From Acidobacteriota bacterium (GTDB lineage Bacteria > Acidobacteriota > Thermoanaerobaculia > Multivoradales > J023), in the NCBI GenBank assembly GCA_029263395.1, contig JAJCXO010000015.1, positions 1-34,026 of the forward strand: DNA of 34,026 nucleotides, given 5' to 3'. A program made the translations under genes and the position numbers. Within the stretch, counting starts at the first letter, position 1. Each line of letters opens with the position of its first letter. Positions 5,888 to 29,990 of this stretch are shown here, one piece after another. Under the pieces are notes generated by a model. It was not told the DNA's origin and made no database searches. It saw only the letters and a program-made list of their open reading frames with translations.

Positions 5888-5929
5888 CGTTGCAAGTGGC
5901 CTGGGCGGTCCGGCGTCGAGCGCAGCTGG

Positions 5930-15600: not shown

Positions 15601-18600
15601 GCCCAACCTTGACTCCGCCGCAGCCGCGACCGATGACGATGCCGCGGCTGCTGCCGATTTCGTTCGCCCAGGAGCGACTCTGGATCCTCGATCGCCTTGA
15701 AGGTCCCTCCGCGACCTACAACATCCCGCACGCACTGCGCCTCGAAGGCAAGCTCAATGTCGCCGCCCTCGAGCGCGCCCTCGGCGAGATCGTGTCTCGT
15801 CATGAAAGTCTGCGCAGCCGCTTTGTTGTGCTGACGGACGAAAATTCCACGGTGACTCAGAAGATCGAGCCGCCGGCAGACTTCCCCCTGCCCTGGGTGG
15901 ATCTCTCCGGCCTGCCTGCCGCCGCTGCCGAGGACAGCGCGATGGCGCTGGTGCGGCGGGACGCCGTTGCCCCCTTCGACCTGGATCAGGGCCCCTTCCT
16001 GCGCGCCTCCCTGCTGGGTCTGCGCGGCGAGGTCCATGTGCTGGTCCTTAGCATGCATCACATCGTGTCCGACGGTTGGTCCTTCGGTGTGTTCAATCGC
16101 GAGCTGTCGGCCTTTTACAAGGCCTTTCGTGCGGGTGTTGATCCCTCCACCGTTGCGCCGCCGCTCGCGGTGCAGCCGCTTCTCGTTCAGTACCCCGACT
16201 ACGCACTCTGGCAGCGGGATTGGCTGCAAGGTGAGACCCTGGAGGGGCAGTTGGGGTATTGGGTCCGCAAGCTCAAAGGTGCGCCGGAATCCCTGGACCT
16301 GCCCCTGCGGGGTCCGCGCCCAGCAACCCGGACCTATCGCGGCACCATGGAGAGGTTCCGGCTAAGCCAGCAGCTGACGGAGGGTCTAAGGCGCTTGGCG
16401 GCAGCGACCCGCGGCACCCTCTTCCTGGTGCTGGAAGCGGCCTTCGCCGAGCTGCTGGGACGGTATAGCGGGGCCCGGGATGTCTGTGTGGGAACCCCGG
16501 TATCGAATCGACGGTTCGCGGAGCTGGAGCCGCTCATCGGTTGTTTCATCAACACCTTGGTGGTGCGTAACACGCTGAATCGCGGCACGGTACGGGAGCG
16601 CATCGACACGCTGCGGGGGACTGTCCTGGACGCCTTCGCCCATCAGGATGTGCCCTTCGAGCGCTTGGTGGAAGTCCTCAATCCGGTCCGGGACGCGAGC
16701 CGCTCTCCCATCTTTCAGGTCATGATGGTCTTGCAGAACGCCTCGATGCCGGCCTTGGAGCTCGAGGGTCTCACCGTCCAAGAGTTGCCCCAGCGCACCA
16801 CCACCGCCAAATTTGATCTCACCCTCTACCTGATGGAGGACGGCGACGGCCTGGCCGCCGGTATCGAATACAACGTCGATCTTTTCGACCTCTCTTTGAT
16901 TCGGCGGATGGCCCGGCAACTGCGCACCCTGCTGGAGAGCTTCACCGCACACTCTGATGGCGGCATTGGGGATCTGAGCTTGATGACCGTGGCGGAGCGT
17001 TTCCAGGTGCTCGGCGAGTGGAACGACACGGCCGTCCGTCGCCGCCCATGGCCGGGGCTTCACGCCGGCTTCGAGGAGCAGGCACGCCGGTCGCCGCGGG
17101 CCGTCGCTCTGGTTTATGCCGGGCAGCCAACAACCTACGGCGAGCTCAACTCCCGCGCCGATCAGCTGGCCGCCCACCTGCTGGCCGCCCACCTGCTGGA
17201 GAAGGGCATCGCGTGCGAGACGCGAGTTGCGATCCTCTTACCGCGCTCTCCCGCCCTGATCGCGGGGCTGCTTGGGATTCTCAAGACCGGAAGCACTTAC
17301 GTCCCGCTGGATCCCGCCTATCCCCGGGACCGCCTGGGATTCATGCTGGACGATGCTGACGTCGCTGTTCTGGTGACGAGCCGCGAAGCGCTCGCGGCGA
17401 GTGCTCTCGAGCCCACCTGTGCGGTTTTGTTCGAGGACGACCTCTTGGCGGAAGATCCGCCGCTTGCGGGATGGACCCAGCCTGCCGCGGCCGTTTCTCC
17501 CGCGGTAGTCGTCGATCCCCGCCAGCTGGCGTATCTGATCTACACCTCTGGATCCACCGGCCGGCCCAAAGCTGTTGCTATCGAGCACGGCTCCGCTACA
17601 GCTCTCCTCGACTGGGCACAGACGGTTTTTCAGGTCGACGACCTGCGGGGCGTGCCGGCCATCAGCTCGGTCTGCTTCGACCTCTCGGTGTTCGAAATTT
17701 TTCTCCCCTTGAGCGTCGGCGGAACGGTTTATCTCGCCGACGACGCCCTGGCGATCCAGGATCTCGAGGGGCGGGAACATTTGACCATGATCCAGACCGT
17801 ACCCTCGGTGGCCGCGGAGCTGGTCCGCGCCCAGGCGGTACCGCCTGGGATCAAGGTTTTTGTCCTGGCCGGCGAGCCCCTGCCGGGGGAGCTGGTTCAG
17901 GCGATGTATGCAATTCCCTCGGTGGAGAAGGTCTGCGACCTTTACGGAGCCAGTGAGGACACCACCCACTCCACCTACACCCTGCGGCGGGCCGGAGGCC
18001 CCCAGACGGTTGGCAGGCCGTTGCACAACCGGCGGCTCTTCCTGCTGGACGCCGGCCTCCGTCCGGTTCCCACGGCAGCGGTCGGCGAGGTTCACCTCGG
18101 CGGAGCAGGGCTGGCCCGTTGTTATCTGCACCGGCCCGGGCTGACCGCTGAGCGCTTCGTGCCCGACCCCTACTCGGGCGAACTGGGCGGGCCGGGCGAA
18201 CGTATCTACCGCACCGGCGATTTGGGCCGATTTTGTGACAACGGCGAGATCCAGATCCTCGGACGCCTCGACCACCAGGTGAAGATCCGCGGCTTCCGCA
18301 TCGAGATCGGGGAGATCGAGGCCCGGCTCTCCCGCCACCAGGGAGTTGAGGAAGCCTGCGTCGTGGTTGACGAGAGCAGCTCCGGCAAGCAGCTGATCGG
18401 CGTGATCCGAGCCGCTGCCGAAGGGCCCACAAAAGGGCCGCGAGTGGAACAACCGCAAGCGGAGGAGCTGCGAAGCTTTCTGGCGGGATCGTTGCCCAAC
18501 TACATGATCCCGACCGCGCTTCTGAGCTTCGCCGAGCTGCCCAAGAACCCGAACGGCAAGGTCGATCGCCGGACGTTACTGCGGCAGGCGCGGCAATTAC

Positions 18601-21600
18601 TACGGGCGCAGAATCAGGACGCCGCAGCGCAGCGCGAGGCCCCCCGCGACGCGGTCGAAGAGAGGCTCGCCGGGCTTTGGACGAGCCTCTTGAGGATCGA
18701 CACGATCGACGGCGACGGCGTCGGCGTTGGCATCCACGACAACTTCTTCGAGCTCGGAGGGCATTCGCTGCTCGCCTCGCGGTTGGCCTCTCGGATCTAC
18801 GCCGACTTCCACGTCAAGCTGCCGTTGCGGACGATCTTCGAACAGCCGACCGTTGCGGGTTTGGCCCGACGCCTCGCCGAGAGCCTACGGGAGATCCCCA
18901 CGGGGGGAGACACAGCGGAAGACACAGGGGGAGACACAGCCCCCCTCTTGCCGGAGCGCCCGGTGGTCTTGCCCTTGTCGTGGGCGCAATACCGCCTGTG
19001 GTTTCTCGACCGCTTCGAAGGTGGCGCGAGCTCGAGCCTCAACATACATTCCGCCTTGCGCTGGCGCGGCGCGCTCGAGCCCGAGGCGTTGTGCGCCGCG
19101 TTCAACCTTCTCCCGGCGCGCCATGAGATCCTCCGCACCACCTTTCCCGTGCGGGATGACGGCGAGCCCTGCCAGCGGATCGCTCCGCGGATCGAGATCG
19201 ACCTCCCGCTCATCGACCTCAGCCGCCTGCAAGCTCCGGATCGCGAGGCCCAACTCCGGCGACGGCAGATCGAGAACGGGCGGCATCTCTTTGATCTGCT
19301 TCAGGCGCCCCTGTTGCGGGTCGCCCTGCTCCGGCTCGAACCACCGGACAGCACAACACAAAATCACGTCGTGCTGCTCTGTGTCCACCACATCGTGAGC
19401 GATGGATGGTCGATGAGCTTGATGTTACGCGAGGTGCTGACGACTTACCTCGCCCGGGTCCGCGGCCTCGAGCCGTCCTTGCCGTCGCTGACCTTGCCGC
19501 CGCTACCACAACAATATGCCGACCATGCCATCGCCCAGCGCCTGCGCCTGGAAGGGGAGACCGGCCGGGTAGAGCTGGACTGGTGGCGCGAGACGTTGAA
19601 CGCGCCGCCGTCGGCGCTCGATCTGCCGACCGATTTCAAACGTCCGCCGGTGATGAGCCACCGCGGAGCGATGTGTCTGCACAGGCTCGATGCCGAGCTT
19701 TCGAGCGACCTGCTGCGGCTCGCTAGCGGCCGCGGCGCCACCCTTTTCATGGTTCTGCTGGCCGCCTTCAAGGTTGTTTTGTGGCGTCTGAGCGGTGCGC
19801 GCGACATCCTGGTGGGCACGCCGATCGCCGGGCGTCAGCAGGCTGAGGTCGAAAATCTGCTCGGCTGTTTTCTCAATACCCTAGTGCTGCGGACGCGTTT
19901 CGACTCGCGACCGGGCTTCGACTCGCGACAGGGTTTCGACGCGCCAACAAGTTTCGAAGACATCCTCGACCGGGTGCGGGAGAACGCCCTCGGCGCCTAC
20001 ACCCACCAAGAACTGCCTTTCGAGCGGATTCTCGAAGAGATCGCCCCGCAGCGCGACCTCTCCCGCACACCCCTCTTCCAGGTGTTCTTCAACATGCTCA
20101 ACCTGCCGCCGGTGGAGAGCCGCGAGCTGCTCCGAGACGCCGGGATTGAAGTCGAACTCTTGGACCCACCTGAAGTGGAATCCAAATTCGATTTGACGGT
20201 TTATCTCAGCGAGCGCGAAGACGGCGCGATCGACTTGCACTTGGTCTATCGCCGCGATCTTTTCGGTCGCGACCGGATGGCCGAGTTGGCGCGTCAATTC
20301 GAGCTGGTACTGCGTCAGATCGCAGACGATCCGGCGATTAGGATCGATCAGATCAGTCTGCTCAGCGAGCCGGCGCGGCGCGCCTTGGGAGATCTCCCGA
20401 GGGCGCAGAGCAACACCTTCGTCGGCAGCGTGCCGGAGCTTTTCCTGCGCCGGGCGAGCGAACATCCCGACAAGATCGCACTCCAAGATCCGCTCACAAC
20501 CCTCAGTTATGCCCGGGTGGCGCGAGCCAGCGGCGAGCTAGCGCGGCAGCTGCGCCGGCTCGGTGCAGGTCGTGGCGCAAGTCCTGGTGCAGGTCGTGGC
20601 ACAGGTCCTGGCGTGACGGTGGCGATTCTCGCCCGGCGCAACGTCGCCCTGGGCGTCGCCGTCCTCGGCGTGCTGCGTGCCGGCGCGGTCGTCTTGATCG
20701 TGGATCCCGACCTGCCCGCAGTTCGGCGTGAGGAGATCCTGCGTCTGGCACGACCCCGGGCGGTGGTAGAACTCGTCGGCGAGATCTGGCACCTTCGGCC
20801 GCTTTCCCGGTCGACCCAAGCGTCTTTCATGCGCACATCAGAGTCTTGCAGCACGTCAGAGTCTGGTAGCACATCAGAACCTGGCAACGCTGCGATCGAT
20901 CTCCCCCTCACGGCCGACGACGCTGCCGTTTTGACCTTCACGTCGGGCTCCACCGGTGTTCCCAAGGGCGTGATCGGACGCCACGGCGCGCTGACCCATT
21001 TTCTCCCCTGGCAGGCGGAGCATTTCGGGCACGGGCCAGACGAGAGAGTCAGCGTGCTCTCGGGGCTTTCCCACGATCCCTTGCAGCGCGATCTCTTCAC
21101 GCCTTTTTTCCTCGGCGGAGTTGCCGTCTTCCCCGATCCCGAGCAACGCCTCGAGCCCGGGTACCTTGCCGGCTGGATGGCACGGGAGCGCATCACCCTG
21201 AGCAATTTGACGCCCGCCCTCGGGCAGGTGATCCATGAGCATGCTGGCGCCGTGCATGTGGGCACCGTACATGCTGGCGCCAAGCTTCCCACGCTGCGCT
21301 GTCTCTTCCTGGTGGGGGAGGCCCTGACCCGCCGCGATGTGAAGGCCCTGCGCGCCCTCGCTCCCAACGCTTGTGTGGTCAATCTTTACGGCGCGACGGA
21401 AACACAGCGTGCGTTGAGTTATCACACGGCCGGTGATCACATGGCAGGTGAAGGATGTGACGATCAGCCCGAGATCCTGCTGCCCGAGATCCTGCCCCTG
21501 GGACGCGGCATGCGGGACGCCGAGCTGTTAATTCTGAGCGCAGCGGGCCAGCTCGCCGGTGTCGGCGAGCTGGGTGAGATCCACATCCGCAGCCCGCACC

Positions 21601-24600
21601 TGGCCCGCGGCTATCTCGACGATCCGGCGCTCACGGCGCAGCGTTTCGTCCCGTGCCGGCTTGCCCTCGAACCCGGCGAGCGGGTTTATCGCACCGGCGA
21701 TCTCGGCCGTTATCTCCCGAATGGTGAGGCCACCATTGTCGGCCGCGCTGACCGCCAGGTGCAGGTGCGCGGTTTCCGCGTCGAGCCCGGCGAGATCGAG
21801 GCACGGCTGGCAAGCCATGAGCTGGTGACGGGGGCGTGCGTTGTCATTGACTCGGCCGGCGACTCGGCCGGCGGCCCGGCCGGAGGTGGTGGACGGCTGT
21901 TCGCGGCGGTGAAATCCACCCAGGAGAAGCCGACATCAACCCAGTTGAGAGATTTTCTGGCGCGGAGCTTGCCGGAATACATGGTGCCGAGCGCCTACCT
22001 CTTCGTGGACCACCTGCCGATCGCGGTCGGCGGCAAGATCGACCGTCGGGCGGTCCTGGAGCTGGCCCGAGGCTCCGCGTCGACGGACGCCGAAAGTCTG
22101 ACGATCCCGCGCACCCCCGAAGAAGAGCTGCTCCGCGGACTCTGGGCCGAGGTGCTCGATCTGGAAGCTTCGCGGGTGGACGTCGAGTCCGATTTCTTCG
22201 CGTCCGGCGGCCACAGCCTGACGGCGACGCGGCTGGCCGCCCTGGTGCGGCAGACCTTCGGCGTCGAGCTGCCGCTGAAAGAAATTTTTGCCCGGCGCAC
22301 CCTCGCCGCGTTGGCGGCCTGCTTGCCGGGCCTGCGCGGCCAAAGGCAGGTTTTGGATCCACCGCGGCCCGCCGAGCGCTCGACGCCGCCGCCACTTTCC
22401 TTCGCGCAGGAGCGGCTCTGGATCCTCGATCGCCTGGAAGGCGCCAGCGCGGTTTACAACATGCCGGGGGCGTTTCGCCTCACCGGAAACCTCAGCATCG
22501 CGGCGCTCGAGCGGGCTTTCGGCGAGATCGTTCGCCGCCATCAAATTCTGCGCACCCGCTTCGTCGAGATCGACGGAGAGGCGCGCCAGGTTCTCGACGA
22601 TCCCGAGTTTTGCCTCAGCGTCCAGGATCTGTCCGCATTGACGGCGGCCTCGGCCGCGGCCGAGGCGCGCGGGTTGTCCGAAGACGACGCGGTCTTGCCC
22701 TTCGCGTTGGAGCGCGGTCGGCTGTTTCGCGCCCGCTTGCTGCGCCTCGGCGAGGACAACCATCTCGTTTTGGTGAACATGCACCACATCGTCTCTGACG
22801 GCTGGTCGATGGGAATTCTGCGCCGCGAGCTGCAGGTGCTCTACAAAGGTCTTCTCGAGCCGACAGCTCTGGAGCCGACAGCTCTCGAGCCGACAGCTCT
22901 GGAGCCGTGCGCCGCCAAGCCCCTCGCGGAACCCCCCTTGCAATACGCGGATTTTGCGATCTGGCAACGCGGCTGGTTGCAAGGCGAGGCCTTACGCTCA
23001 CAACGGGACTTTTGGGTGCGTCAACTGGACGGCGGGCCACAATCCTTGGACCTGCCGACCCGCGGTCCCCGGCCTTCAATGCAGACGTTTGGCGGCGAGC
23101 GCCTGCGCCTGCGTCTCGACCCGGAGCTGGCGGGAGCGCTCCGACGTTTGGCGCTGCACACCCGGTCCACCCTCTTTGTGGTGCTCGAAGCGGCCTTTGC
23201 CGAGCTGTTGGGCCGTTACGGCGGAGCCCGTGAGGTCCACGTCGGCACCCCGGTAGCCAACCGTCGTCACGTCGAGCTGGAATCGCTGATCGGCTTTTTC
23301 GCCAATACCCTCGTCCTGCGCCATCGGTTGGGAACCCAGGCAACGGTTCGGGAACGGCTGGCCGAGACCCGCGACACTGCCCTCGACGCCTTCGCCCATC
23401 AGGACTTACCCTTCGAAAAGCTGGTCGAAGCGCTGAATCCGGTGCGCGACCCCAGCCGCTCGCCGATCTTCCAGGTGATGTTTGCACTGCAAACCGCCTC
23501 CAAGGACGGCTTCGCGCTACCGGGCCTCACCGTCACCCCCTGGCGTCAAGAGTCTGTCGCCGCCAGATTCGACCTCACCCTGAGCCTCATCGAGCTCGAG
23601 GACAAGACCGAGCATCAAATCTCTGGCGAGCTGGTTTACAACACCGACTTGTTCGATCGAGGCCTGATCGAGCGGCTGTCCGCGTCCTACGTGCAGCTGC
23701 TGCGCGGCTTCGTCGAGCGGCCGGAGCAGAAGCCGCACCAGCTTTCGATCCTGACCGCAGCGCAAGAGCGAGAGGTTTTGGCTTTCAACGAGATCGCCGG
23801 GGCGCTCGAGCCAGCCGAGCCTGTCCATTGTCAGGTTCACGAGCAGGCCGTGCAGCGGCCGGACGCGATCGCCGTGGCGTCGAGCCGGGAGATGCTGACC
23901 TATGGCGAGCTCGACCGGCGCAGCGACGAGATGGCGTGCGACCTCCTCCACCCGGGAGTGGCCCGATGGGAGGGCCCGGCCGGCCCGGAAGTTGTTGGAG
24001 TCTTTCTGGAGCGTTCCCCGAACCTGATCGTGGCCCTGCTGGCGATCCTCAAAAGCGGCGCCGCCTATCTTCCTCTCGATCCGGAATACCCCGAGGAGCG
24101 CCTGAGATTCATGTTGCAAGACAGCGCCTGCTCGTCGGTGCTGACAACCTCCTCGCTTGCCGGCCGTATTCCCCAGGGACTCGACGGCTGTCGGCGAATC
24201 CTGCTCGACGCCAACACGGGCGCCGAGGAATCAGAGACCGAGACATGGAAGACCGCGACGAGCGAGACCGAGACGCTGTTCCGGCCGTCGAGCGGCCGCT
24301 CTCGGCATCAAGCGGCCTATGTCATTTATACCTCGGGCTCCACTGGCCGGCCCAAAGGGGTTGTGGTTGCCCACGGCGGTCTGAGCAACCTGGTCGGGGC
24401 CCAGAGAGCTCGCATGGAGCTGGACCGGGAGAGCCGGATCCTGCAGCTCGCTTCGCTGAATTTCGACGCCTCCATCTCGGAGTTCTTCATGGCCCTGTGC
24501 GCCGGGGCCGGCCTGCATCTGATGCCCCGAGACCGGTTGCTGCCGGGACTCGCGCTCACTCGGCTCTGCGACGAACGTGGGATCACCCATCTCACGATGA

Positions 24601-27600
24601 CCCCCACCGCCCTGGCGGTGATGCCGGCGGAGAGTCTCGCCTCGGTCTCGACCTTGCTGGTCGCCGGCGAAGCCTGCCCGCGGGATCTAGCGGCCAGATG
24701 GGCCACCGGGCGTCGTTTGCACAATGCCTACGGCCCGACGGAAAACACCGTCTGCGCCACGATGAGCGAACCTCTCGATCCCGGGCTCGCGGACTCTCCC
24801 ACAATCGGTACCGTGATCGCCAATGTCCGGGCCCACGTCACCGATCGCTGCTTACAGCCGCTCCCTCAGGGGGTTCCCGGAGAGCTTGTCATCGGCGGCG
24901 TCGGCGTCACCCGAGGGTACCTGAATCGTCCGGCGCTGACCGCGGCGCGTTTTGTTCCCGATCCTTTCAGCGGCGAGCCCGGAGCACGCTTGTACCACAG
25001 CGGCGATTCGACGAGTTGGACCGCCGAAGGCTGCTTGAACTTCTTGGGGCGCCTCGACCATCAGGTCAAAGTGCGTGGATTTCGCATCGAGCCGGGGGAG
25101 ATCGAGGCGCGGTTGATCAGCCATGAGCAGGTGGCGGACGCCTGCGTCGTTGTGGTGTCCGCGGCGGGCGACGGCCGTCTGGCAGCGGCGGTGAGTGCCT
25201 CGGGGGAACGGCCGGCCGCGGCGGATTTGAGAGACTTTCTGCTGCGCACCTTGCCCGAACACATGGTGCCGAGCGTCTGGGTTTTCGTCGACAGCTTGCC
25301 GATCACGGTCAACGGCAAGACCGACCGCCGGGCCGTCCTCGAGAGGGTCCTTGAAGACCTGGCGGCGGAGGCTGAGAACGCCACCCCTGGGGAGGCCCCG
25401 CGCGATGCTCTGGAAGAAATCCTCGTCGGCCTCTGGGGGAGTCTTTTGCAGCGGGGCGAGGTCGGCATTCACGACAATTTCTTCGAACTCGGCGGGCATT
25501 CGCTGCTCGCCACTCAGGTGATCTCCCGGATCCGCGATGACTTTCGGGTGGAGTTGCCGGTGCGTGCGGTCTTCGAAGAGCCGACGGTCGCCGGCCTGGC
25601 ACGGTGCCTCGGCGAGAGCTTGCGGCCGACGATTTCGGAGGAGATTATGGCGCCAGGTCCCCTGGCGCTGGAGCGTCCGTCGATCTTGCCCCTGTCGTGG
25701 GCACAATACCGTCTGTGGTTTCTCGACCGCTTCGAAGACGGCGCGGCATCGAGTCTCAACATTCGTCTCGCCTTGCGCTGGCGCGGCGCGCTCGAGCCCG
25801 AGGTTTTGCGCGCCGCCTTCAACCTGCTCTTGGCGCGCCATGAGATCCTGCGCACCACCTTCCCGGCCCGAGACGGCGGCGAGCCCTTCCAGAGGATCGC
25901 TCCGCGGCTGGAAATCGATCTCCCGATCATTGACCTCAGCCGCCTCGAAGCCCCGGATCGCGAGGCTCAGGTCCGGCGCCGGCAAATCGAAAGCGGACAG
26001 CATCTTTTTGATCTGCTCCGGGCGCCCCTGCTGCGGGTCGCATTGCTCCGGCTCGGAGAGCAACATCATGTCTTGCTGCAATGTGTCCACCACATCGTCA
26101 GCGATGGCTGGTCGATGAGCTTGATGTTGCGCGAGGTCCTGACGGCTTACCTCGCCCTGATCCGCGGCCCCGAGTTGTCCTTGCCGCCGCTACCTCAGCA
26201 ATATGCCGACCATGCAATCGCCCAGCGCTTGCGCCTGGACGGAGAAGGGGGCCGGGTAGAGCTCGACTGGTGGCGCGAGACGCTGAAGGCGCCGCCGTCG
26301 GCGCTCGATCTGCCCACCGATTTCAAACGCCCGCCGGTCGCGAGTCACCGCGGAGCATCGTGCCTGCACCTGCTCGACGCCGAGCTTTCGAGCGACCTGC
26401 GGCGGCTCGCTCGTGGACGCAGCGCCACCCTCTTCATGGTTCTGCTCGCCGCCTTCAAGATCGTTCTCTCCCGTCTGAGCGGCGAGCGCGACATCCTGGT
26501 GGGCACGCCGATCGCCGGGCGTCAGCGGACCGAAGTCGAGCATCTGCTCGGCTGCTTCCTCAACACCCTGGTGCTGCGGACCCGTCTCGACTCGCAACCG
26601 GGCTTCGACTCGCAACCGGGCTTCAACTCGCGACCAGGCTTCGAAGACATCCTCGAGCGGGTGCGGGAAACTGCCTTGGGAGCGTACGCTCACCAGGAAT
26701 TGCCCTTCGAGCGGATCCTCGAAGCGCTCGCGCCGGAGCGTGACCTCTCCCGCACGCCCCTCTTCCAGGTGTTCTTCAACATGCTCAATCTGCCTCCGGT
26801 GGACAGCGCCGCGCTCCTTCAGGACGCGGGGTTTGAAATCGAAGCCCTGGATCTTCCCGGTGTGGAATCCAAATTCGATCTGACGGTTTATGCCGCTGAC
26901 CGCGAAGCGGGAACAATCGCCCTGAATCTGGTGTATCGCCGCGATCTTTTCGACCGCAAGCGGATCGCCGAGCTGGCGCGTCAATTCGAGCGGGTGCTGC
27001 GTCAGGTCGCAGCCGATCCGGAAATCCCAATCGATCAGATCAGCCTGCTCAGCGAGCCGGCGCGCCGAGCCTTGGATCTCCCGAGCCCGCAGAGCAACGC
27101 CTTCGTGGGCAGCGTGCCGGAGCTTTTCCTGCGCCGGGCGAGGGAACATCCCGACAGAATTGCGCTTTGCGATCCGCAGGTGACTTGGAGCTACGCTGGG
27201 ACGGCGCGAGAGAGCGCCGAGCTGGCGCGACGTTTGCGTAGGCACGGTGTCGGGCACGGCCTCGGGCACGGCCTCGGGCACAGTGGCGAGCACGGCGTCG
27301 GGCACCGCCCAGTGGTGGTGGCAATACTCGCCCGGCGCACCGCGGCCCTGGGCATCGCCGTCCTCGGCGTGCTGCGCGCCGGCGCGGTGGTCACAATTCT
27401 CGATCCCGACCTGCCCGCGGCTCGTCTCGATGAGATCTTGCGTGTGGCGCAGCCCCACGCCATGGTCAAAATCGACGGCAACACCTTCGAGGTATCTTCC
27501 ACCAAAGCCTCACGCCTTTTGGCGCTTCATCGCCAAGGAACAAGCGAGCCTTTGCCACGAGGGGTTGAAACCCCTCGCTCAGTGATGAAGTCCCTTCCGG

Positions 27601-29990
27601 GACTTGGGAGTTTCTGCGGGGGAGCATCGACTCAGAGGGACCAGTCACTCGTGACGACAGCCAAGCTTGTTCCTAGGAAAGCCTCAGAAGCCTGCGCGGC
27701 TCCGATCGATCTCCCCCTCGGCGCTGACGACCCCGCCATCCTGACCTTTACCTCCGGCTCCACCGGCGTTCCCAAAGGTGTGATCGGACGCCACGGTCCT
27801 CTGACGCATTTTCTCTCTTGGCAGGCGGAACGTTTTCAACACGGCGGGAGCGACCGGGTCAGCGTGCTCTCGGGGCTTGCGCACGATCCTCTGCAGCGCG
27901 ACCTCTTCACACCGCTTTGCCTGGGTGCGGCCGCCGTGTTTCCCGATCCCGAGCAGCGCCTCGAACCGGGATATGCCACCGCTTGGCTGGCGAGCCAGCG
28001 CATCTCTCTCAGCCATCTGACGCCGGCCCTCGCCCAGGTGATCACCGAGCATGCGCAGGCTCTCCTGCCCGCCCTGCGCTGCGTCTTCCTGGTGGGGGAG
28101 GCCTTGACCCGGCGGGATGTCGAGGCCTTGCTGGCTCTCGCTCCGCGGGCCCAGATCGTCAACCTCTATGGTTCGACTGAGACCCAGCGCGCGGTGAGCT
28201 TTCACACCGCATCTCGGACACCCGAGGCACAGCCCGAGACGCGTCCCGAGATCCTCCCTCTGGGCCGCGGCATGTTGGGCGTCGATCTCCTGATTCTCAA
28301 TCCAGCGGGCGAGCTCGCTGGCATCGGCGAAGTGGGTGAGATCCATGTGCGCAGCCCACACCTCTCGGTCGGCTACCTGGGCGATCCGGCGCTGACGGCG
28401 CAGCGTTTCGTCCCTTGCAGGCTATCCCTCGAGCCGAGCGAGCGGGTCTATCGCAGCGGCGATCTCGGGCGCTACCTGCCAGACGGTGAGGTCGCCTTTG
28501 CTGGGCGTGTAGACCGCCAGGTTCAAATCCGCGGTTTCCGCGTCGAGCCTGGAGAGATCGAAGCGGTCCTGGCCCGCCACCCCCGAGTCGAGCAGGTTGC
28601 GGTGCTCGCGCAAGGTCACCGCCTGATCGCGTTTCTGACCCTCGAGGCTGTCGCCGCCGAGGGTCCAGATCAGGGTCCAGATCAGGGTCCGGATCAGGTC
28701 CCGGATCAGGATCTTCGTGCTTGGCTCGGTGAGCGTCTGCCCGCCTACATGGTGCCGGCTGCCTTCCACGTCTTGGACGCTCTGCCGCTCACCGCAACGG
28801 CGAAGGTTGATCGCCAGGCCCTGCTGGAGCTCAACCTCGAGACCTCCGACGATCCGACCGGCGGCACGACCTCTGAGCCACCGCAAGGTCCCATCGAGCA
28901 ACGGCTCGCCGAGATCTGGAGCGACGTATTGGAGCTTCCTCAGGTCGGCCGCCATGGCAATTTTTTCGCCCTCGGCGGGCATTCCTTGCTCGCGGTGAGC
29001 TTGGTCGCCCGCATCAATCGAGCGTTTGGGGTGCGTTTACCGCTCGCGACACTCTTCGCACATCCCTCCCTCAGCGCCTTGGCGTCACAGATCGACCCTG
29101 CCCTCGGCAACCAGAGAGGCCCGCAAGCCACCTCGCCGGTTCAGGTCTTGCGTCCCGGCGCCGCCGCCAGCGCCCCACCCTTCTTTTGTGTCCATCCGGC
29201 CGGCGGAATGCTCTTCGGCTACAACGATCTGGCGCGTCGGCTCGATCTTCCCGGGGCCTTCTACGGCATCCAGGATCCAGGCCTCGAGGACCCCGAACAA
29301 ACCGGTTCGGACATCGAAGCGATGGCCGAACAAACCGAATCAACCATCGAAGCGATGGCCGCGCGTTACATCGATGCCCTTCGTCAGGTGCAGCCCACTG
29401 GGCCCTATCATCTGGGGGGGTGGTCGATGGGAGCGATGATCGCCTATGAAATGGCCTGCCAGCTGCGCTCCGCGGGGGAAGACATCAATGTTTTGGCCTT
29501 GATCGACGGCGGTCCCGCACGGCTGGCGTGGGCTCGGAAAGAAAGGGCGGCTCACGGCGAGAAGGCGGGCGAAGAGATCGGCGCCGTCGCGTTGCTGCGG
29601 GAGCTTGGACTGCCGGCGGCAGAGCAAGAACAGTGGAGCAAGCTGCCGGAAGATCAATTGCAGCAACGGATCTGGCGACACGCCATCGAGCACAAGGTTT
29701 TGCCGCCGGATTTTGATCTCGAAACGATGCGGCAGGCGTTCCGTCTCCAACGGTCGCATCTCGAAACCCTGCTGGCCTACTCTCCGCGCCCCAGCGACCT
29801 GTCAATCCACCTTTTCGTCGCCCAGACGCGTGCGCCCGGTTTACCCGACGACCTGGGCTGGTCGCAGCTCGTCGCTAGGGTCGTCGCGGTCGAGGTGCCG
29901 GGAGATCATCAACAAATGATGCGCGAGCCAGAGGTGCGAGTGTTGGCAGTGGAGTTGCGGAAGGTTTTGGTGCCCAGCTCCTCGGATTAG
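6633..29990 (+). CDS. giant hybrid KS/half-DH - six-module NRPS with thioesterase
   Basis: The protein has 7,785 residues (about 0.85 MDa at 110 Da per residue). Order: KS, KS-flanking subdomain, N-terminal half of a DH, then six condensation-adenylation-carrier modules and a type I thioesterase. All six C domains keep HHxxxDG, all six carrier domains keep the phosphopantetheine Ser (GGHS or GGNS), and the TE keeps Ser, Asp and His. No AT, ACP, KR, epimerase or methyltransferase is present, so the KS would need acyl groups supplied in trans. ATG 6633 is preferred, about 15 codons before the KS begins, with a weak AGG 6 bp upstream; GTG 6612 and ATG 6483 are in-frame alternatives. It likely makes a hexapeptide with or without a polyketide cap (inference from pocket residues). 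A phosphopantetheinyl transferase and upstream PKS partners must lie elsewhere. Unusual features are many in-frame tandem repeats and a MITE-like insertion in the sixth A domain. The MFS exporter at 31002-32282 is the only nearby gene with a plausible link. Confidence 0.95.
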   Translation: MTSQRGQTGNRGPDAQPIAVVGLAGRYPEADCVDRFWQNLAAGKDCIREIPRDRWDYRQRAALGKPELRWGGFIDDVDAFDSLFFNISPREAALMDPQERIFLEVVWEVLEDAGYLPETLVAKGEDRDVGVFVGAVWAFYQTVGAEEAFKGHVVGANSYLWAVANRVSYTLNLTGPSLAIDTACSSSLTALHMACEAIRQGECRAAIAGGVNLDLHPSKRVVTAGGGFLSPDGRCFTFGNKANGYVAGEGVGAVLLKPLSDAERDGDQIHGVILSTAVNHGGKTSGFTVPRARAQKALITRALDQAGIDARTVSYVEAHGTGTKLGDPIEIQALSEAFRNQTQDTSFCAIGSVKSNVGHLEAAAGIAGLTKVLLQFRHGQLAPSIHTEELNELIDFERTPFVVQRRAGLWKRPVIDGVEMPRRAGLSSFGAGGANAHLILEEYRCADPREDATVSQRRAVAPQRGSEVFVLSARSEERLTAYAEKFAGALSAGWLDALELCDISYTLQLGRTGWRHRLAVVAHSHEQFLVGLRFFLEGRSNVEVMTGDIKNASSFASLIDGDDREEIVRVLVRGGNPHKLARRWCDGILPDWYQVRDPRSGRRVSLPTYPFALEKHWIGTDEPIRGAQTVQALHTFIDANVSTFGRQAYRKVFDAEHFVFGDHVIGGEPMLPEVSYLEMARAAGELACGRPVRRLENIVRSKPITLAECGKEIFIELELVADHLRFEICGAGSADARDVYARGELFFEASAAELPDPPRRQLHQTVYPLTKGQQGIWFLCRLAPEAYAYNIPFAFHVGRGTDPSKLRRALQVLQDRHPALRTVFREIDGEPRQYVMEPSEVSFQEEDLSHLDGDAVIAHLLGTTRIPFDLETGPLLRVFFFHRGRQRPILLINIHHLVFDGVSYNTLIDELLTVYGAELAGPEHSGPEHGLAPVGESFAAFEAWQRQMLASPAGEKLLAYWREQLAHAPRQLDLPLDLPRPARRSFAGATLDVELNSSFVLQLRGLARSCKTNLFSLCLGAFGLLLARTTRQPEVVIATAATGRPDERWQGVVGYFVNLLPVRMSFAGNPPLRSAIKAVQKAVFGLLEHADLPFPALVEALGILPEADHSPLCQASFIWQNLRANLSREYGPGRENHALSLEPVEGVHQVGEIELSLEIFDLQDHLHLIFKYDPTLFHRERICRLAEHYEVLLAGFAEGLETGVLDLEWLSGAARHQLLTHSHGPPLEGSTVSLQTAFAAAAATFADAPALRFGDQVLTYTALDRRTNRLARRLREMGVGPDVRVGIRMQRSIAMAEAVLAVLKAGGAWVPMDPAYPEERLLRMEQDAAPGVVLTEASLTGLGLSDVGLTTDLSQEDAALAEVASAQNLLFVIYTSGSTGRPKGVAMSRGAIANLIRWQIGLETFRPRLRTVQLASLSFDVSVQELFETWCSGGEVVLVSEELRRDANALLGFLRDRRIQRMHQPFVGLQALAAAFEDAAVEDVADEGRGIVPTSLREVYTAGEALQASQPLRSFFKALPDCSFHNHYGPTEAHVVTAFDLPRNSDDWTALPPIGAPIARARIELLDPRLHRVPIGVCGELYIAGANLARGYLDRPGLTAARFVPDPNTHGERFYRTGDLARWRTDGQIEYLGRCDHQVKVRGYRIEPGEIEALLSGQENVRDAAVVVHEVSSGDRRLTAFVVSAGAAPVGSEPTGAAPGGAESVSAESGDSREIIDDVLAASLRRILTSRLPSYMVPSAIVFLSRFPSLPSGKLNRRALQERAVAGAAAPGGSGRIAPRTTEEELLCGIWAEGLTAPAASIGAESHFFELGGNSLTATRLCALIRKTFAVEVPLAEIFAHPTVGALAIRLAAFQIDSPVLAPPTRARRPDPLPLSFTQPLSFSQPLSFAQERLWFLDRLEGPATTYSMPYAWRLEGAVEAGALSRALRALVDRHESLRTHFAASAGDSARQIIEPPAGFGLRVVDLSGLPLAPAEATATALVNRDTATPFELDRGPLFRVTLLRLRDDLHVLSLNMHHIISDGWSLGVIQTELPLLYRACRAGEDPSTVLPPLPIQYADYALWQRDWLRGEALAGQLAYWTRQLESCPQSLDLPTLGPRPVMQTFRGQVRSFRVNSELTQALRQLALQTRGTLFLVLEAAFAELLGRFSGVREVNVGTPVANRRYVELESLIGFFVNPLVLRNTLDGELTVRQRIAQVRETALDAFAHQDLPFEKLIEALNPVRDTSRSALFQVMFALQGESMDEFELPGTSSSAWGIDYSIANIAKFDLTLNLAEAGDDGLSGDLIYNTDLFDPDLIERMTACFVELLRGFAASSPKQKAHQLSMLTAAQEREVLEEFNAPAAPLGDSDPVPQRIRDQASRRPDALALRSGRKSLTFRELDRRSNQVAHHLVRQGVRPGERVALVMDRSIELVTGLLGVLRAGAVYVPLDPKSPTERLRFMVEDADCKVRLTKAEVGGILASPWASVPAPTFDALPCKTLPGHTLPGNAPGGHTLPGNAPAYVIYTSGSTGNPKGVVISHQSLAGLVAWYLREYEVREGDHATLIAGPAFDASVFEIWPCLCGGASLEVVDDEFLVPELLAEFFNRKRPTHAFVPTPLMELMLRTQCLDRIRTLRYLQIGGDRLMSRPAEALPFAIVNNYGPAECTVVSTVSTVSSVAQVSSVAQVSSVAQVSSAVQVSSAAQAAVAANPPSIGCPIPGARVYSLDAYLNPVPPLVAGELCLAGTGLSQGYLHRRGLSAEKFVPNPFAAAVGERLYRTGDLGYWLSNGKLAFLGRIDHQVKLRGFRIELGEIEARLVSHEQVTGACVVVVTMDNQPAGSDGRLAAVVRCAGEGCAGERVAGDSPGASHFIDFLSHNLPDYMVPSVWLFVTSLPLTANGKIDREAVLKLAREAAAVEKVREHVAEKVTAPRTTEEELLAEIWAEVLGRDASKIGVETDFFALGGHSLSAVRLTALVRQTFDVELPLREVFARPTIRALASYLPSLRHQGPTLTPPQPRPMTMPRLLPISFAQERLWILDRLEGPSATYNIPHALRLEGKLNVAALERALGEIVSRHESLRSRFVVLTDENSTVTQKIEPPADFPLPWVDLSGLPAAAAEDSAMALVRRDAVAPFDLDQGPFLRASLLGLRGEVHVLVLSMHHIVSDGWSFGVFNRELSAFYKAFRAGVDPSTVAPPLAVQPLLVQYPDYALWQRDWLQGETLEGQLGYWVRKLKGAPESLDLPLRGPRPATRTYRGTMERFRLSQQLTEGLRRLAAATRGTLFLVLEAAFAELLGRYSGARDVCVGTPVSNRRFAELEPLIGCFINTLVVRNTLNRGTVRERIDTLRGTVLDAFAHQDVPFERLVEVLNPVRDASRSPIFQVMMVLQNASMPALELEGLTVQELPQRTTTAKFDLTLYLMEDGDGLAAGIEYNVDLFDLSLIRRMARQLRTLLESFTAHSDGGIGDLSLMTVAERFQVLGEWNDTAVRRRPWPGLHAGFEEQARRSPRAVALVYAGQPTTYGELNSRADQLAAHLLAAHLLEKGIACETRVAILLPRSPALIAGLLGILKTGSTYVPLDPAYPRDRLGFMLDDADVAVLVTSREALAASALEPTCAVLFEDDLLAEDPPLAGWTQPAAAVSPAVVVDPRQLAYLIYTSGSTGRPKAVAIEHGSATALLDWAQTVFQVDDLRGVPAISSVCFDLSVFEIFLPLSVGGTVYLADDALAIQDLEGREHLTMIQTVPSVAAELVRAQAVPPGIKVFVLAGEPLPGELVQAMYAIPSVEKVCDLYGASEDTTHSTYTLRRAGGPQTVGRPLHNRRLFLLDAGLRPVPTAAVGEVHLGGAGLARCYLHRPGLTAERFVPDPYSGELGGPGERIYRTGDLGRFCDNGEIQILGRLDHQVKIRGFRIEIGEIEARLSRHQGVEEACVVVDESSSGKQLIGVIRAAAEGPTKGPRVEQPQAEELRSFLAGSLPNYMIPTALLSFAELPKNPNGKVDRRTLLRQARQLLRAQNQDAAAQREAPRDAVEERLAGLWTSLLRIDTIDGDGVGVGIHDNFFELGGHSLLASRLASRIYADFHVKLPLRTIFEQPTVAGLARRLAESLREIPTGGDTAEDTGGDTAPLLPERPVVLPLSWAQYRLWFLDRFEGGASSSLNIHSALRWRGALEPEALCAAFNLLPARHEILRTTFPVRDDGEPCQRIAPRIEIDLPLIDLSRLQAPDREAQLRRRQIENGRHLFDLLQAPLLRVALLRLEPPDSTTQNHVVLLCVHHIVSDGWSMSLMLREVLTTYLARVRGLEPSLPSLTLPPLPQQYADHAIAQRLRLEGETGRVELDWWRETLNAPPSALDLPTDFKRPPVMSHRGAMCLHRLDAELSSDLLRLASGRGATLFMVLLAAFKVVLWRLSGARDILVGTPIAGRQQAEVENLLGCFLNTLVLRTRFDSRPGFDSRQGFDAPTSFEDILDRVRENALGAYTHQELPFERILEEIAPQRDLSRTPLFQVFFNMLNLPPVESRELLRDAGIEVELLDPPEVESKFDLTVYLSEREDGAIDLHLVYRRDLFGRDRMAELARQFELVLRQIADDPAIRIDQISLLSEPARRALGDLPRAQSNTFVGSVPELFLRRASEHPDKIALQDPLTTLSYARVARASGELARQLRRLGAGRGASPGAGRGTGPGVTVAILARRNVALGVAVLGVLRAGAVVLIVDPDLPAVRREEILRLARPRAVVELVGEIWHLRPLSRSTQASFMRTSESCSTSESGSTSEPGNAAIDLPLTADDAAVLTFTSGSTGVPKGVIGRHGALTHFLPWQAEHFGHGPDERVSVLSGLSHDPLQRDLFTPFFLGGVAVFPDPEQRLEPGYLAGWMARERITLSNLTPALGQVIHEHAGAVHVGTVHAGAKLPTLRCLFLVGEALTRRDVKALRALAPNACVVNLYGATETQRALSYHTAGDHMAGEGCDDQPEILLPEILPLGRGMRDAELLILSAAGQLAGVGELGEIHIRSPHLARGYLDDPALTAQRFVPCRLALEPGERVYRTGDLGRYLPNGEATIVGRADRQVQVRGFRVEPGEIEARLASHELVTGACVVIDSAGDSAGGPAGGGGRLFAAVKSTQEKPTSTQLRDFLARSLPEYMVPSAYLFVDHLPIAVGGKIDRRAVLELARGSASTDAESLTIPRTPEEELLRGLWAEVLDLEASRVDVESDFFASGGHSLTATRLAALVRQTFGVELPLKEIFARRTLAALAACLPGLRGQRQVLDPPRPAERSTPPPLSFAQERLWILDRLEGASAVYNMPGAFRLTGNLSIAALERAFGEIVRRHQILRTRFVEIDGEARQVLDDPEFCLSVQDLSALTAASAAAEARGLSEDDAVLPFALERGRLFRARLLRLGEDNHLVLVNMHHIVSDGWSMGILRRELQVLYKGLLEPTALEPTALEPTALEPCAAKPLAEPPLQYADFAIWQRGWLQGEALRSQRDFWVRQLDGGPQSLDLPTRGPRPSMQTFGGERLRLRLDPELAGALRRLALHTRSTLFVVLEAAFAELLGRYGGAREVHVGTPVANRRHVELESLIGFFANTLVLRHRLGTQATVRERLAETRDTALDAFAHQDLPFEKLVEALNPVRDPSRSPIFQVMFALQTASKDGFALPGLTVTPWRQESVAARFDLTLSLIELEDKTEHQISGELVYNTDLFDRGLIERLSASYVQLLRGFVERPEQKPHQLSILTAAQEREVLAFNEIAGALEPAEPVHCQVHEQAVQRPDAIAVASSREMLTYGELDRRSDEMACDLLHPGVARWEGPAGPEVVGVFLERSPNLIVALLAILKSGAAYLPLDPEYPEERLRFMLQDSACSSVLTTSSLAGRIPQGLDGCRRILLDANTGAEESETETWKTATSETETLFRPSSGRSRHQAAYVIYTSGSTGRPKGVVVAHGGLSNLVGAQRARMELDRESRILQLASLNFDASISEFFMALCAGAGLHLMPRDRLLPGLALTRLCDERGITHLTMTPTALAVMPAESLASVSTLLVAGEACPRDLAARWATGRRLHNAYGPTENTVCATMSEPLDPGLADSPTIGTVIANVRAHVTDRCLQPLPQGVPGELVIGGVGVTRGYLNRPALTAARFVPDPFSGEPGARLYHSGDSTSWTAEGCLNFLGRLDHQVKVRGFRIEPGEIEARLISHEQVADACVVVVSAAGDGRLAAAVSASGERPAAADLRDFLLRTLPEHMVPSVWVFVDSLPITVNGKTDRRAVLERVLEDLAAEAENATPGEAPRDALEEILVGLWGSLLQRGEVGIHDNFFELGGHSLLATQVISRIRDDFRVELPVRAVFEEPTVAGLARCLGESLRPTISEEIMAPGPLALERPSILPLSWAQYRLWFLDRFEDGAASSLNIRLALRWRGALEPEVLRAAFNLLLARHEILRTTFPARDGGEPFQRIAPRLEIDLPIIDLSRLEAPDREAQVRRRQIESGQHLFDLLRAPLLRVALLRLGEQHHVLLQCVHHIVSDGWSMSLMLREVLTAYLALIRGPELSLPPLPQQYADHAIAQRLRLDGEGGRVELDWWRETLKAPPSALDLPTDFKRPPVASHRGASCLHLLDAELSSDLRRLARGRSATLFMVLLAAFKIVLSRLSGERDILVGTPIAGRQRTEVEHLLGCFLNTLVLRTRLDSQPGFDSQPGFNSRPGFEDILERVRETALGAYAHQELPFERILEALAPERDLSRTPLFQVFFNMLNLPPVDSAALLQDAGFEIEALDLPGVESKFDLTVYAADREAGTIALNLVYRRDLFDRKRIAELARQFERVLRQVAADPEIPIDQISLLSEPARRALDLPSPQSNAFVGSVPELFLRRAREHPDRIALCDPQVTWSYAGTARESAELARRLRRHGVGHGLGHGLGHSGEHGVGHRPVVVAILARRTAALGIAVLGVLRAGAVVTILDPDLPAARLDEILRVAQPHAMVKIDGNTFEVSSTKASRLLALHRQGTSEPLPRGVETPRSVMKSLPGLGSFCGGASTQRDQSLVTTAKLVPRKASEACAAPIDLPLGADDPAILTFTSGSTGVPKGVIGRHGPLTHFLSWQAERFQHGGSDRVSVLSGLAHDPLQRDLFTPLCLGAAAVFPDPEQRLEPGYATAWLASQRISLSHLTPALAQVITEHAQALLPALRCVFLVGEALTRRDVEALLALAPRAQIVNLYGSTETQRAVSFHTASRTPEAQPETRPEILPLGRGMLGVDLLILNPAGELAGIGEVGEIHVRSPHLSVGYLGDPALTAQRFVPCRLSLEPSERVYRSGDLGRYLPDGEVAFAGRVDRQVQIRGFRVEPGEIEAVLARHPRVEQVAVLAQGHRLIAFLTLEAVAAEGPDQGPDQGPDQVPDQDLRAWLGERLPAYMVPAAFHVLDALPLTATAKVDRQALLELNLETSDDPTGGTTSEPPQGPIEQRLAEIWSDVLELPQVGRHGNFFALGGHSLLAVSLVARINRAFGVRLPLATLFAHPSLSALASQIDPALGNQRGPQATSPVQVLRPGAAASAPPFFCVHPAGGMLFGYNDLARRLDLPGAFYGIQDPGLEDPEQTGSDIEAMAEQTESTIEAMAARYIDALRQVQPTGPYHLGGWSMGAMIAYEMACQLRSAGEDINVLALIDGGPARLAWARKERAAHGEKAGEEIGAVALLRELGLPAAEQEQWSKLPEDQLQQRIWRHAIEHKVLPPDFDLETMRQAFRLQRSHLETLLAYSPRPSDLSIHLFVAQTRAPGLPDDLGWSQLVARVVAVEVPGDHQQMMREPEVRVLAVELRKVLVPSSSD
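6681..8930 (+). other. KS - flanking subdomain - half-DH region
   Basis: The ketosynthase spans about 6681-7961, with catalytic Cys184 (DTACSSS), His319 (EAHGTGT) and His359 (NVGHLE), all intact. The VNHGGKTSGFTVP stretch is typical of trans-AT ketosynthases. A flanking subdomain follows (about 8031-8480, closing with LPTYPFALEKHW) in the place where trans-AT systems lack an AT. Then comes about 115 residues (8529-8880) matching only the first hot-dog of a PKS dehydratase: the catalytic motif HVIGGEPMLP (His663) fits HxxxGxxxxP. The second hot-dog with its Asp/Gln (DxxxQ) motif is missing. The sequence passes straight into the C1 domain with no ACP. Confidence 0.8.
9391..9420 (+). repeat. 15-bp x2 in-frame repeat (C1)
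   Basis: Two copies coding GPEHS/GPEHG lie in the C1 domain, past HHLVFDG and the following helix, in a loop before the FxxWQ stretch. Confidence 0.85.
11683..11760 (+). repeat. degenerate Gly/Ala/Glu-rich in-frame repeat (A1)
   Basis: Four diverged units of the kind GAAPVGSEP/TGAAPGGAES lie in the C-terminal subdomain of A1, between its beta strands and the YMVP motif. Confidence 0.65.
12252..12305 (+). repeat. 18-bp x3 repeat of the C2-domain start motif
   Basis: Units at 12252, 12270 and 12288 code PLSFTQ, PLSFSQ and PLSFAQ. The last belongs to the conserved SFAQERLWFLD motif of C2, so the first six residues of a core motif have been copied twice upstream. Confidence 0.95.
14082..14141 (+). 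repeat. 30-bp x2 in-frame repeat (A2)
   Basis: Two copies at 14082-14111 and 14112-14141 code GHTLPGNAPG/GHTLPGNAPA just before the ATP-binding YTSGSTG loop. A partial copy precedes them. Confidence 0.9.
14598..14687 (+). repeat. 18-bp x5 in-frame repeat beside the A2 pocket
   Basis: Five units coding VSSVAQ (twice varied to VSSAVQ and VSSAAQ) begin a few codons after the YGPAECTVV stretch that carries the last variable pocket residues. Confidence 0.95.
15651..18880 (+). other. NRPS module 3 (C-A-PCP), alanine-like pocket
   Basis: C3 (SFAQERLWILDRLEG, HHIVSDG) is LCL-like. A3 (about 17040-18570) gives pocket residues D-L-F-Q-V-A-L-T-H-K. Cyanobacterial alanine-activating domains carry DLFNNALTYK as I recall (7 of 10 shared), so Ala or another small residue is likely. 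A3 has LYGASED in place of the usual YGPTE motif, as seen in that A-domain group. PCP3 has its Ser codon at 18765-18767 (ELGGHSL). Confidence 0.65.
17166..17195 (+). repeat. 15-bp x2 in-frame repeat (A3)
   Basis: Two identical copies code LAAHL in the N-terminal helix of A3, lengthening the helix before the VAILLPRS strand. Confidence 0.9.
18900..18941 (+). repeat. GGDTAEDT in-frame repeat (PCP3-C4 linker)
   Basis: Three short units built on GGAGACACAG or GGAAGACACAG code TGGDTAEDTGGDTA in the linker between PCP3 and C4. Confidence 0.75.
19899..19952 (+). repeat. 18-bp x3 in-frame repeat (C4)
   Basis: Units code FDSRPG, FDSRQG and FDAPTS after FLNTLVLRTR in C4. The same loop in C6 (26586-26639) carries a related three-unit repeat. 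Confidence 0.9.
20562..20609 (+). repeat. 24-bp x2 in-frame repeat (A4)
   Basis: Two copies code GAGRGASP/GAGRGTGP in the N-terminal part of A4, before the VAILARR strand. The same loop in A6 holds a different repeat. Confidence 0.9.
20832..20885 (+). repeat. 18-bp x3 in-frame repeat (A4)
   Basis: Units code RTSESC, STSESG and STSEPG between the A2 and A3 motifs of A4, in the same region where A6 holds the MITE-like insertion. Confidence 0.9.
21240..21284 (+). repeat. 15-bp x3 in-frame repeat (A4)
   Basis: Units code HAGAV, HVGTV and HAGAK between LTPALGQVI and the LRCLFLVGEAL motif. A6 lacks this insertion. Confidence 0.85.
21849..21884 (+). repeat. 12-bp x3 in-frame repeat (A4)
   Basis: Two identical units (GACTCGGCCGGC, coding DSAG) and a diverged third (GPAG) lie in the C-terminal subdomain of A4. 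Confidence 0.9.
22392..25620 (+). other. NRPS module 5 (C-A-PCP), tyrosine-like pocket
   Basis: C5 (SFAQERLWILDRLEG, HHIVSDG) has an N-half close to C3 and a C-half close to C2. A5 (about 23820-25340) has pocket residues D-A-S-T-L-A-A-V-C-K. The recalled code for Tyr or its beta-hydroxy form is DASTVAAVCK (9 of 10), so a tyrosine-type residue is a good prediction. Its A7 motif reads YHSGDSTSW where the others read YRTGDL or YRSGDL; the ribose-binding Asp is kept. PCP5 has ELGGHSL (Ser codon 25500-25502). Confidence 0.7.
22854..22913 (+). repeat. 15-bp x4 in-frame repeat (C5)
   Basis: Three full units coding LEPTA and a fourth ending LEPCA lie after the HHIVSDG helix in C5, in a loop before the LQYADFAIWQ motif. 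Confidence 0.95.
26586..26639 (+). repeat. 18-bp x3 in-frame repeat (C6)
   Basis: Units code LDSQPG, FDSQPG and FNSRPG at the same C-domain loop as 19899-19952 in C4. Confidence 0.95.
27246..27305 (+). repeat. 12-bp x5 in-frame repeat (A6)
   Basis: Units of the form GGCCTCGGGCAC code GxGH-type tetrapeptides, giving a His/Gly-rich loop. It occupies the same position as the unrelated 24-bp repeat of A4 (20562-20609). Confidence 0.95.
27504..27686 (+). mobile_element. MITE/REP-like hairpin element inserted in frame in A6
   Basis: Perfect 9-bp direct repeats AAAGCCTCA lie at 27504-27512 and 27678-27686, 174 bp apart (58 codons, so the frame is kept). Inside them are 10-bp inverted repeats AGGAACAAGC (27536-27545) and GCTTGTTCCT (27665-27674). 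Between these are three hairpins: CGAGGGGTT/AACCCCTCG (27558-27577), AAGTCCC/GGGACTT (27588-27605) and GTCAC/GTGAC (27644-27655). The paralogous A4 domain lacks this sequence. The encoded stretch (such as LPRGVETPRSVMKSLPGLGS) resembles no A-domain segment. I infer a small non-autonomous element that landed in an inter-motif loop and is translated; the family is not identified. Confidence 0.7.
28662..28709 (+). repeat. 12-bp x4 in-frame repeat (A6)
   Basis: Units code GPDQ, GPDQ, GPDQ and VPDQ in the C-terminal subdomain of A6, before LRAWLGERLPAYMVP. Confidence 0.95.
29140..29987 (+). other. type I thioesterase domain
   Basis: This alpha/beta-hydrolase domain ends the synthetase. The nucleophile Ser lies in GGWSMGA (codon 29424-29426), the Asp in LIDGG (29505-29507) and the His in PGDHQQM (29907-29909). 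It would release the peptide from PCP6 by hydrolysis or cyclisation; the sequence does not tell which. Just before the active-site strand it carries a 33-bp tandem duplication (29295-29360) that adds 11 residues. Confidence 0.85.
29295..29360 (+). repeat. 33-bp x2 in-frame repeat (TE)
   Basis: The two copies code EQTGSDIEAMA and EQTESTIEAMA, a helix duplication ahead of the TE active-site segment. Confidence 0.95.

Follow-up and report, generated by a model that had tools for sequence, protein, structure and literature searches.

The palindromic elements of Rickettsia (RPEs) reportedly go back to work by Ogata et al. in 2000 and 2002. In the passages of the literature cited here, RPEs are described as palindromic repeats of about 105-150 bp which are located in intergenic DNA and also, in frame, within conserved protein genes (PMC2229807, PMC10969869). 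Nearly half of them are said to lie in ORFs (PMC10969869), and for gmk the cited passage states that a product carrying an RPE is active with a changed substrate affinity (PMC2229807). The QMITE2 elements of Coxiella burnetii, according to the excerpt used, comprise 150-190 bp with TIRs and with direct repeats of 7-9 bp (7-11 bp according to the abstract) that differ per copy, occur also as small REP-like versions, have strong secondary structure, occupy mostly 3' UTRs and intergenic DNA and contain a GTAG REP (PMC5896051). REP palindromes of the GTAG and CGTC types are presented, in the part of the source cited, as short high-copy hairpins that are sometimes intragenic, coding for 20-82 residues, and the CGTC type as being without a dedicated transposase (PMC3733652). 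MITEs in cyanobacterial megasynthase genes are attributed to Fewer et al. (cited in PMC4766695), while a passage on Anabaena sp. 90 describes MITEs that turn ORFs into pseudogenes and defines type II MITEs as those without a partner (PMC3542288). Among the matches listed in the open-licence literature, no title on a palindromic element inside an adenylation (A) domain was found.

The stretch of DNA analysed here (the window) is the entire contig C15, with a length of 34,026 b, of the acidobacterial draft genome G000 (10.68 Mb, 291 contigs, 96% complete). G001, a relative within the same genus, was the source of the orthologous NRPS for comparison. The window holds an NRPS ORF of 7,835 codons (6483-29990) comprising KS/DH, six modules and a TE. 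Pfam assigned three Condensation and three AMP-binding domains to each half of this ORF, together with ketoacyl-synthase, PKS_DH_N and Thioesterase, and at E<=1e-5 no family outside the usual NRPS domains was found in it. An earlier note on this DNA, made from the letters alone, had described a MITE-like hairpin element inside the sixth A domain, and the element is indeed located in the sixth of the six AMP-binding domains (A6). The motifs of the A domain are named A2 and A3 here, and the stretch LTFTSGSTGVPKGV is directly read in the sequence after the insert. The features are collected in Table 1.

Table 1. Features of the NRPS gene and of the inserted element (positions in the window).
Feature	Position	Strand	Basis
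NRPS ORF holding the element	6483..29990	+	ORF call and Pfam
Sixth adenylation domain A6 (query and modelled stretch)	27120..28682	+	Pfam, structure model
Left 9-bp direct repeat AAAGCCTCA (target-site duplication, perhaps partly element)	27504..27512	+	Present once at the empty site in G001
Inserted palindromic element, 165 bp, 55 codons	27513..27677	+	Ends set by the empty site; 44 matching stretches including itself in G000
Left-end hairpin CGCC-TTTT-GGCG	27513..27524	+	Folding; left module at 29 places
Left inverted-repeat arm CCAAGGAACAAGC	27533..27545	+	CCAAGGAACAAG at 16 places
Core hairpin 1, CGAGGGGTT-GA-AACCCCTCG	27558..27577	+	Repeat search, covariation
Core hairpin 2, AAGTCCC-TTCC-GGGACTT	27588..27605	+	Folding, covariation
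Right inverted-repeat arm GCTTGTTCCTAGG	27665..27677	+	Right-end module CTTGTTCCTTGGAA at 21 places
Right 9-bp direct repeat AAAGCCTCA	27678..27686	+	Exact repeat; empty-site match

The two direct repeats are exact and spaced by 174 bp, resulting in a net gain of 174 bp or 58 codons. Assuming equal base frequencies, an exact 9-bp repeat would arise by chance with a probability of about 0.0017 over 21x21 end placements. The 9-bp flanks, the three hairpins and the in-frame 174-bp period claimed in the earlier note were all recovered; position 27504 is codon position 1 of the NRPS ORF, frame 0 is open while frames 1 and 2 carry stops, and the frame stays open past the insert through the end of the TE. 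The inverted repeats had been given as 10 bp. They are present inside the direct repeats as stated, but are longer, with 13 nt at 92% complementarity. Since the right arm adjoins the right direct repeat and the left arm begins 20 bp inside the left end, they are strictly terminal on the right side only, and the element ends are no mirror images. Compared to dinucleotide shuffles, the fold of the element reached a z of -2.74 as RNA (2 of 200 shuffles as good) and of -2.43 as DNA (3 of 200).

Only the host frame is open through the 165 bp, which contain no transposase gene of their own. An open frame was retained in 641 of 2000 shuffles, and therefore an open frame over 55 codons often arises by chance and does not show selection for the frame. 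The exact border between element and duplication is ambiguous, because a copy on contig C102 likewise has TCA before CGCC and AAA past its right end: the split may lie anywhere from 165 bp with a 9-bp duplication up to 171 bp with a 3-bp duplication (GCC). The net gain is 174 bp whichever split holds.

The element belongs to a dispersed family. A search of G000 with the 183-bp stretch 27504-27686, as the earlier note had proposed in similar form, gave 44 matching stretches including the query itself (E<=0.001), hence 43 others, whereas the note had named the lack of any second copy as evidence against its reading. The best of these, on C102, showed 85% identity over 172 bp (query 6-177), amounts to 163 bp from CGCC on (locus L002), lies outside any ORF of 100 codons and contains two stops in the homologous frame. 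Six further copies showed 90-94% over 82-112 bases, while the remaining matches were weaker, some comprising left module and core at 74-78% and others just one of these two. With added searches the family amounts to 57 stretches at 53 sites on 46 contigs of G000. In motif searches, the inverted-repeat motif CCAAGGAACAAG occurs at 16 exact places including the window copy (reversed control 0), of which one, on C211, looks like a chance match; the left module at 29 places including the window copy at <=3 mismatches (reversed control 0); and the right-end module CTTGTTCCTTGGAA at 21 places, again including the window copy, at <=1 mismatch (control 0). Among 148 genomes of the class including G000 itself, each scored on no more than 5 candidates, the family was matched at E<=1e-5 in three (G000, G001 and G018), and the matches of G001 (10) and of G018 were all partial. 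Rfam gave no match for 27000-28200 up to E 1.

Viewed at 17 of the 29 left ends and 14 of the 21 right ends (forward-strand loci), the copies are mosaic: a left module, in most cases behind a CTAGATCCCATCCAGC-like stretch, is combined with variable hairpin modules, with a core of two hairpins and with the right end CTTGTTCCTTGGAA. The CTAGATCCCATCCAGC-like module precedes most of the other copies viewed and is missing from the window copy. No clear direct repeats were seen by eye at the other copies viewed, except for a possible case in the tandem second copy at C90, where GGCGATCA before CGCC and GGCGACCA three bases past the right end match in 7 of 8 positions, which is suggestive of a similar target duplication.

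Both core hairpins covary across the copies. In an alignment of 34 places selected from the matches of two genomes (26 of G000 and 8 of G001, G018 being excluded), 90.9% of the cells in the core helices were paired, and 6 of the 14 pairs showed changes in both partners, amounting to 17 cells. The second hairpin is altered in L022, L032, L040, L048 and L050. In no shuffle out of 500 was any of the five measures reached, and slid controls were lower on each, although related sequences can beat shuffles without structure, so that it is the pair-type counts that carry weight.

Other repeats were observed beside some of the copies. Next to the C102 copy, L002 501-2670 (query 767-958) holds a different repeat of about 190 bp, for which G001 showed over 20 matches, most of them at 76-80%; therefore several dispersed repeat families are present in the genus. 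Beside the C5 copy, short palindromic units of the GTTAAGCGAATCATTCGCTTAAC type stand in tandem (L004, about 1680-1800). The C8 copy has about 70 bp of a second repeat (GGCGAGTTC...GGATGGGATTT) on either side (L003, 1400-1800), as if one repeat had been inserted into another.

The insertion site can be compared with its empty counterpart. With A6 as query, contig C88 of G001 showed the orthologous NRPS in two pieces, query 1-131 and 187-519, whose places on the contig overlap by 9 bases. In a blastn comparison of the window with this contig, the match stops at 27512 (s18502) and restarts at 27678 (s18510), both 9-bp copies falling on the same 9 bases. The aligned G001 DNA reads CCACAAAAGCCTCAGAGGCC, with one AAAGCCTCA and no element, and the codon alignment comprises a single gap of 58 aa at the site, where G001 reads ...VSAT directly followed by KASEAC... 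The absence from A4 of G000, claimed before, was borne out by DNA alignment, with a short tandem repeat in the same loop instead. Twelve A domains were aligned: A6 and its orthologue in G001, the A4 domains of G000 and G001, and eight from G001, G002, G005, G011, G018 and G019. The insert is absent from all 11 domains other than A6, so that the conservation in unrelated A domains which the earlier note had named as evidence against its reading was not encountered. The eight more distant domains have shorter residues of their own in the loop before A3. Because of the empty site in G001 and the absence from the other A domains, the insertion is most simply read as a gain in the G000 lineage. The L002 locus, whose flanks lie 112 bp apart in G001 compared to 536 bp holding the element in G000 (71-72% identity), may be a second empty site and is taken as supporting only. 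The L004 locus, examined as another possible one, gave no clear answer.

Apart from the element, in-frame tandem repeats are abundant in the NRPS ORF, many with periods that are multiples of 3 (for example 14597-14688 with an 18-bp unit in 5.1 copies, 26587-26644, 27241-27305 and 28660-28710). A 42-bp tandem repeat of 5.2 copies with 88% matches lies immediately upstream of the ORF (5929-6147). Over the part covered by the G001 contig, the NRPS of G000 showed 18 extra stretches of at least 5 residues besides the 58-residue insert and only 3 missing ones. Therefore, it seems that the gene is either gaining length in G000 or losing it in G001.

A partner for the family was sought in the 291-contig assembly by Y1_Tnp and CCAAGGAACAAG searches, and no autonomous element or partner transposase with these ends was found; nor was a larger element framed by the 16 exact CCAAGGAACAAG positions seen by eye. 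A RAYT/REP partner was set aside, since none of the 18 Y1_Tnp loci of G000 has the element nearby, apart from one weak match (E 0.05) beside a fragment. Of the six Y1_Tnp loci at which hairpins were viewed, L093 carries its own, different inverted pair: CCCAGGGTT hairpins next to GTAG, at 1288-1308 and 2005-2025, flank the Y1_Tnp (RAYT-like) gene, and this locus looks like the REPtron of a separate REP family. Concerning the classification, the element is short and without its own transposase, occurs in many copies and shows a target-site duplication at the window copy (true length 3-9 bp), all as in MITEs, whereas no IS or transposase partner with matching ends was found at the CCAAGGAACAAG positions or the Y1_Tnp loci. 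Because no transposase sharing its ends was found, the label "MITE" rests on resemblance. RAYT-linked REPs are marked by a GTAG-tagged 20-40-bp hairpin flanking a RAYT gene, and the element was not seen in such a position at the Y1_Tnp loci, the one weak match aside. The in-frame position of a palindromic repeat in a conserved protein gene, combined with its absence from the orthologue, corresponds to RPEs.

Altogether, we consider it highly probable that a copy of a non-autonomous, hairpin-rich repeat inserted into the pre-A3 loop of A6 after the split from G001, with a 9-bp direct repeat and an open frame. On this reading the family is MITE-like, its REP-like hairpin modules being enclosed by inverted repeats of the CCAAGGAACAAG type. 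Insertion of one copy would have produced the direct repeat and the net 58 codons, and the inverted repeats, the copy number and the direct repeat point to mobilisation in trans, presumably by a transposase acting on the CCAAGGAACAAG arms. Alternatively, the sequence could have been captured when a staggered break was repaired, or through template switching, with the 9-bp repeat composed of a filled-in overhang and microhomology. This is in line with the mosaic structure, the variable ends and the lack of obvious direct repeats at other copies, with TCA and AAA being shared with the C102 copy and with no transposase having turned up at the CCAAGGAACAAG positions or the 18 Y1_Tnp loci. Yet the unit has an inverted repeat close to or at each of its ends, and its end motifs and core occur in high copy number, as expected of a moving element, and we regard capture as rather unlikely. 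Some elements are known to excise precisely, and an ancestral insertion could thus have been lost from G001; this would, however, also have to account for the absence from both A4 domains and eight further A domains and for the partial state of all 10 family matches in G001, and is very improbable. A misassembly is likewise very improbable: dispersed repeats can misjoin in a draft of 291 contigs, but both flanks are adjacent on a single contig of G001, and the best other whole-element copy is just 85% identical, no identical full copy for a misjoin having been found. Finally, the segment could be a functional part native to this type of A domain, as a sub-domain or loop, with the likeness to repeats being secondary. 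Inserted domains are known in some A domains (in the description of 5wmm, a methylation domain interrupts the A domain), the pre-A3 loop varies in length and eight A domains have their own residues there. Since the segment is absent from the orthologue and 11 other aligned A domains, its DNA matches 43 other stretches of G000 in whole or in part and Pfam shows the usual NRPS domains only at E<=1e-5, we give this explanation almost no weight.

For the insertion of a mobile repeat as preferred above, the consequence for the enzyme has to be considered. Since the frame is open, the default product should be an NRPS with a 58-residue extra loop, and this loop would be translated and tolerated. An AlphaFold2 model of A6 based on 12 sequences was of modest quality (mean pLDDT 62, pTM 0.67), while structure comparison matched its fold to NRPS A domains. 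Residues 132-198, comprising the insert and its right flank, form the longest stretch with pLDDT below 50 (block means 25-46) and sit between the strands 122-127 and 205-212. The modelled position fits a disordered loop before motif A3, outside the A-domain core. Tandem-repeat expansions were observed in the same loop of A2 (14073-14139), A4 (20833-20886) and A5 (24234-24275), and because of these the pre-A3 loop seems tolerant of inserts. The dN/dS between G000 and G001 came to 0.19 over the 364 codons of A6 that follow the insert and to 0.18-0.27 in nine other stretches. The 119 codons of A6 preceding the insert gave 0.33, the highest value of the stretches measured. There is no general relaxation of A6 around the insert, in values in which a recent loss would not yet register. 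A Pfam scan of ten ORFs that cover other copies (7 of G000, 1 of G001 and 2 of G018) gave no domain spanning the copy, so that no second copy inside a conserved domain was found among them. Seven were without any domain, and in the three with domains (ECF sigma, lactonase and amidohydrolase) the best-scoring domain stretches fall after the copy.

It could also be that the insertion inactivates module 6 and that pseudogenisation is in progress. A 58-residue insert can impair a catalytic domain, and the cited passages mention MITEs in mcyD of Anabaena (cited in PMC4766695) and mcy clusters inactivated by MITEs (cited in PMC3542288). Against this, the frame is open to the end of the TE, no damage is seen by eye in the A-domain motifs that follow the insert, the dN/dS after the insert resembles that of other domains (a young inactivation would not yet show) and the insert has a predicted loop position. 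Inactivation is therefore rated as rather unlikely. A further idea is that the element has been domesticated as a functional new 58-residue loop altering substrate handling or domain contacts, and that mobile palindromes, together with in-frame tandem repeats, continually feed the evolution of NRPS loops in this group of acidobacteria; we consider this improbable.

The locus provides an unusually clean natural experiment, since two genomes of one genus differ in whether the same A domain carries the mobile-element loop, and the empty site is known to the base. Protein-coding palindromes, best known from Rickettsia, are thereby extended to the Acidobacteriota and to a catalytic domain of an NRPS. 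The locus also marks an A-domain loop into which long segments can be taken up; provided that the domain is active, this would be of use in NRPS engineering. The repeat family, being without an Rfam match in the region searched, has a starting point here.

Compared to the described systems, as far as the cited passages portray them, the Coxiella QMITE2 is closest in build to the acidobacterial element, but the window copy lies inside an A domain and no GTAG tag was seen at its core. With REP palindromes it shares short hairpins, high copy number and an occasional intragenic position, while the acidobacterial unit is longer, with inverted repeats around two core hairpins, and is not found at the 18 Y1_Tnp loci of G000, one weak match aside. 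The cyanobacterial MITEs resemble it as small non-autonomous elements within PKS/NRPS or other ORFs; those of PMC3542288 disrupt ORFs, whereas the frame is kept in the acidobacterial NRPS. The RPEs share the in-frame palindromic repeat within a conserved protein gene, although they belong to another phylum and are likened by description and not by sequence, and nearly half of them are said to be in ORFs, compared to no second in-domain copy here among the 10 ORFs scanned. The earlier note had called a palindromic element in an A domain unusual. This holds for the host domain, but not for the kind, since in-frame palindromic elements in protein genes are already known from Rickettsia and REPs can be intragenic. 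New here are the repeat family (within the searches made), the phylum, the host domain and the base-exact empty site.
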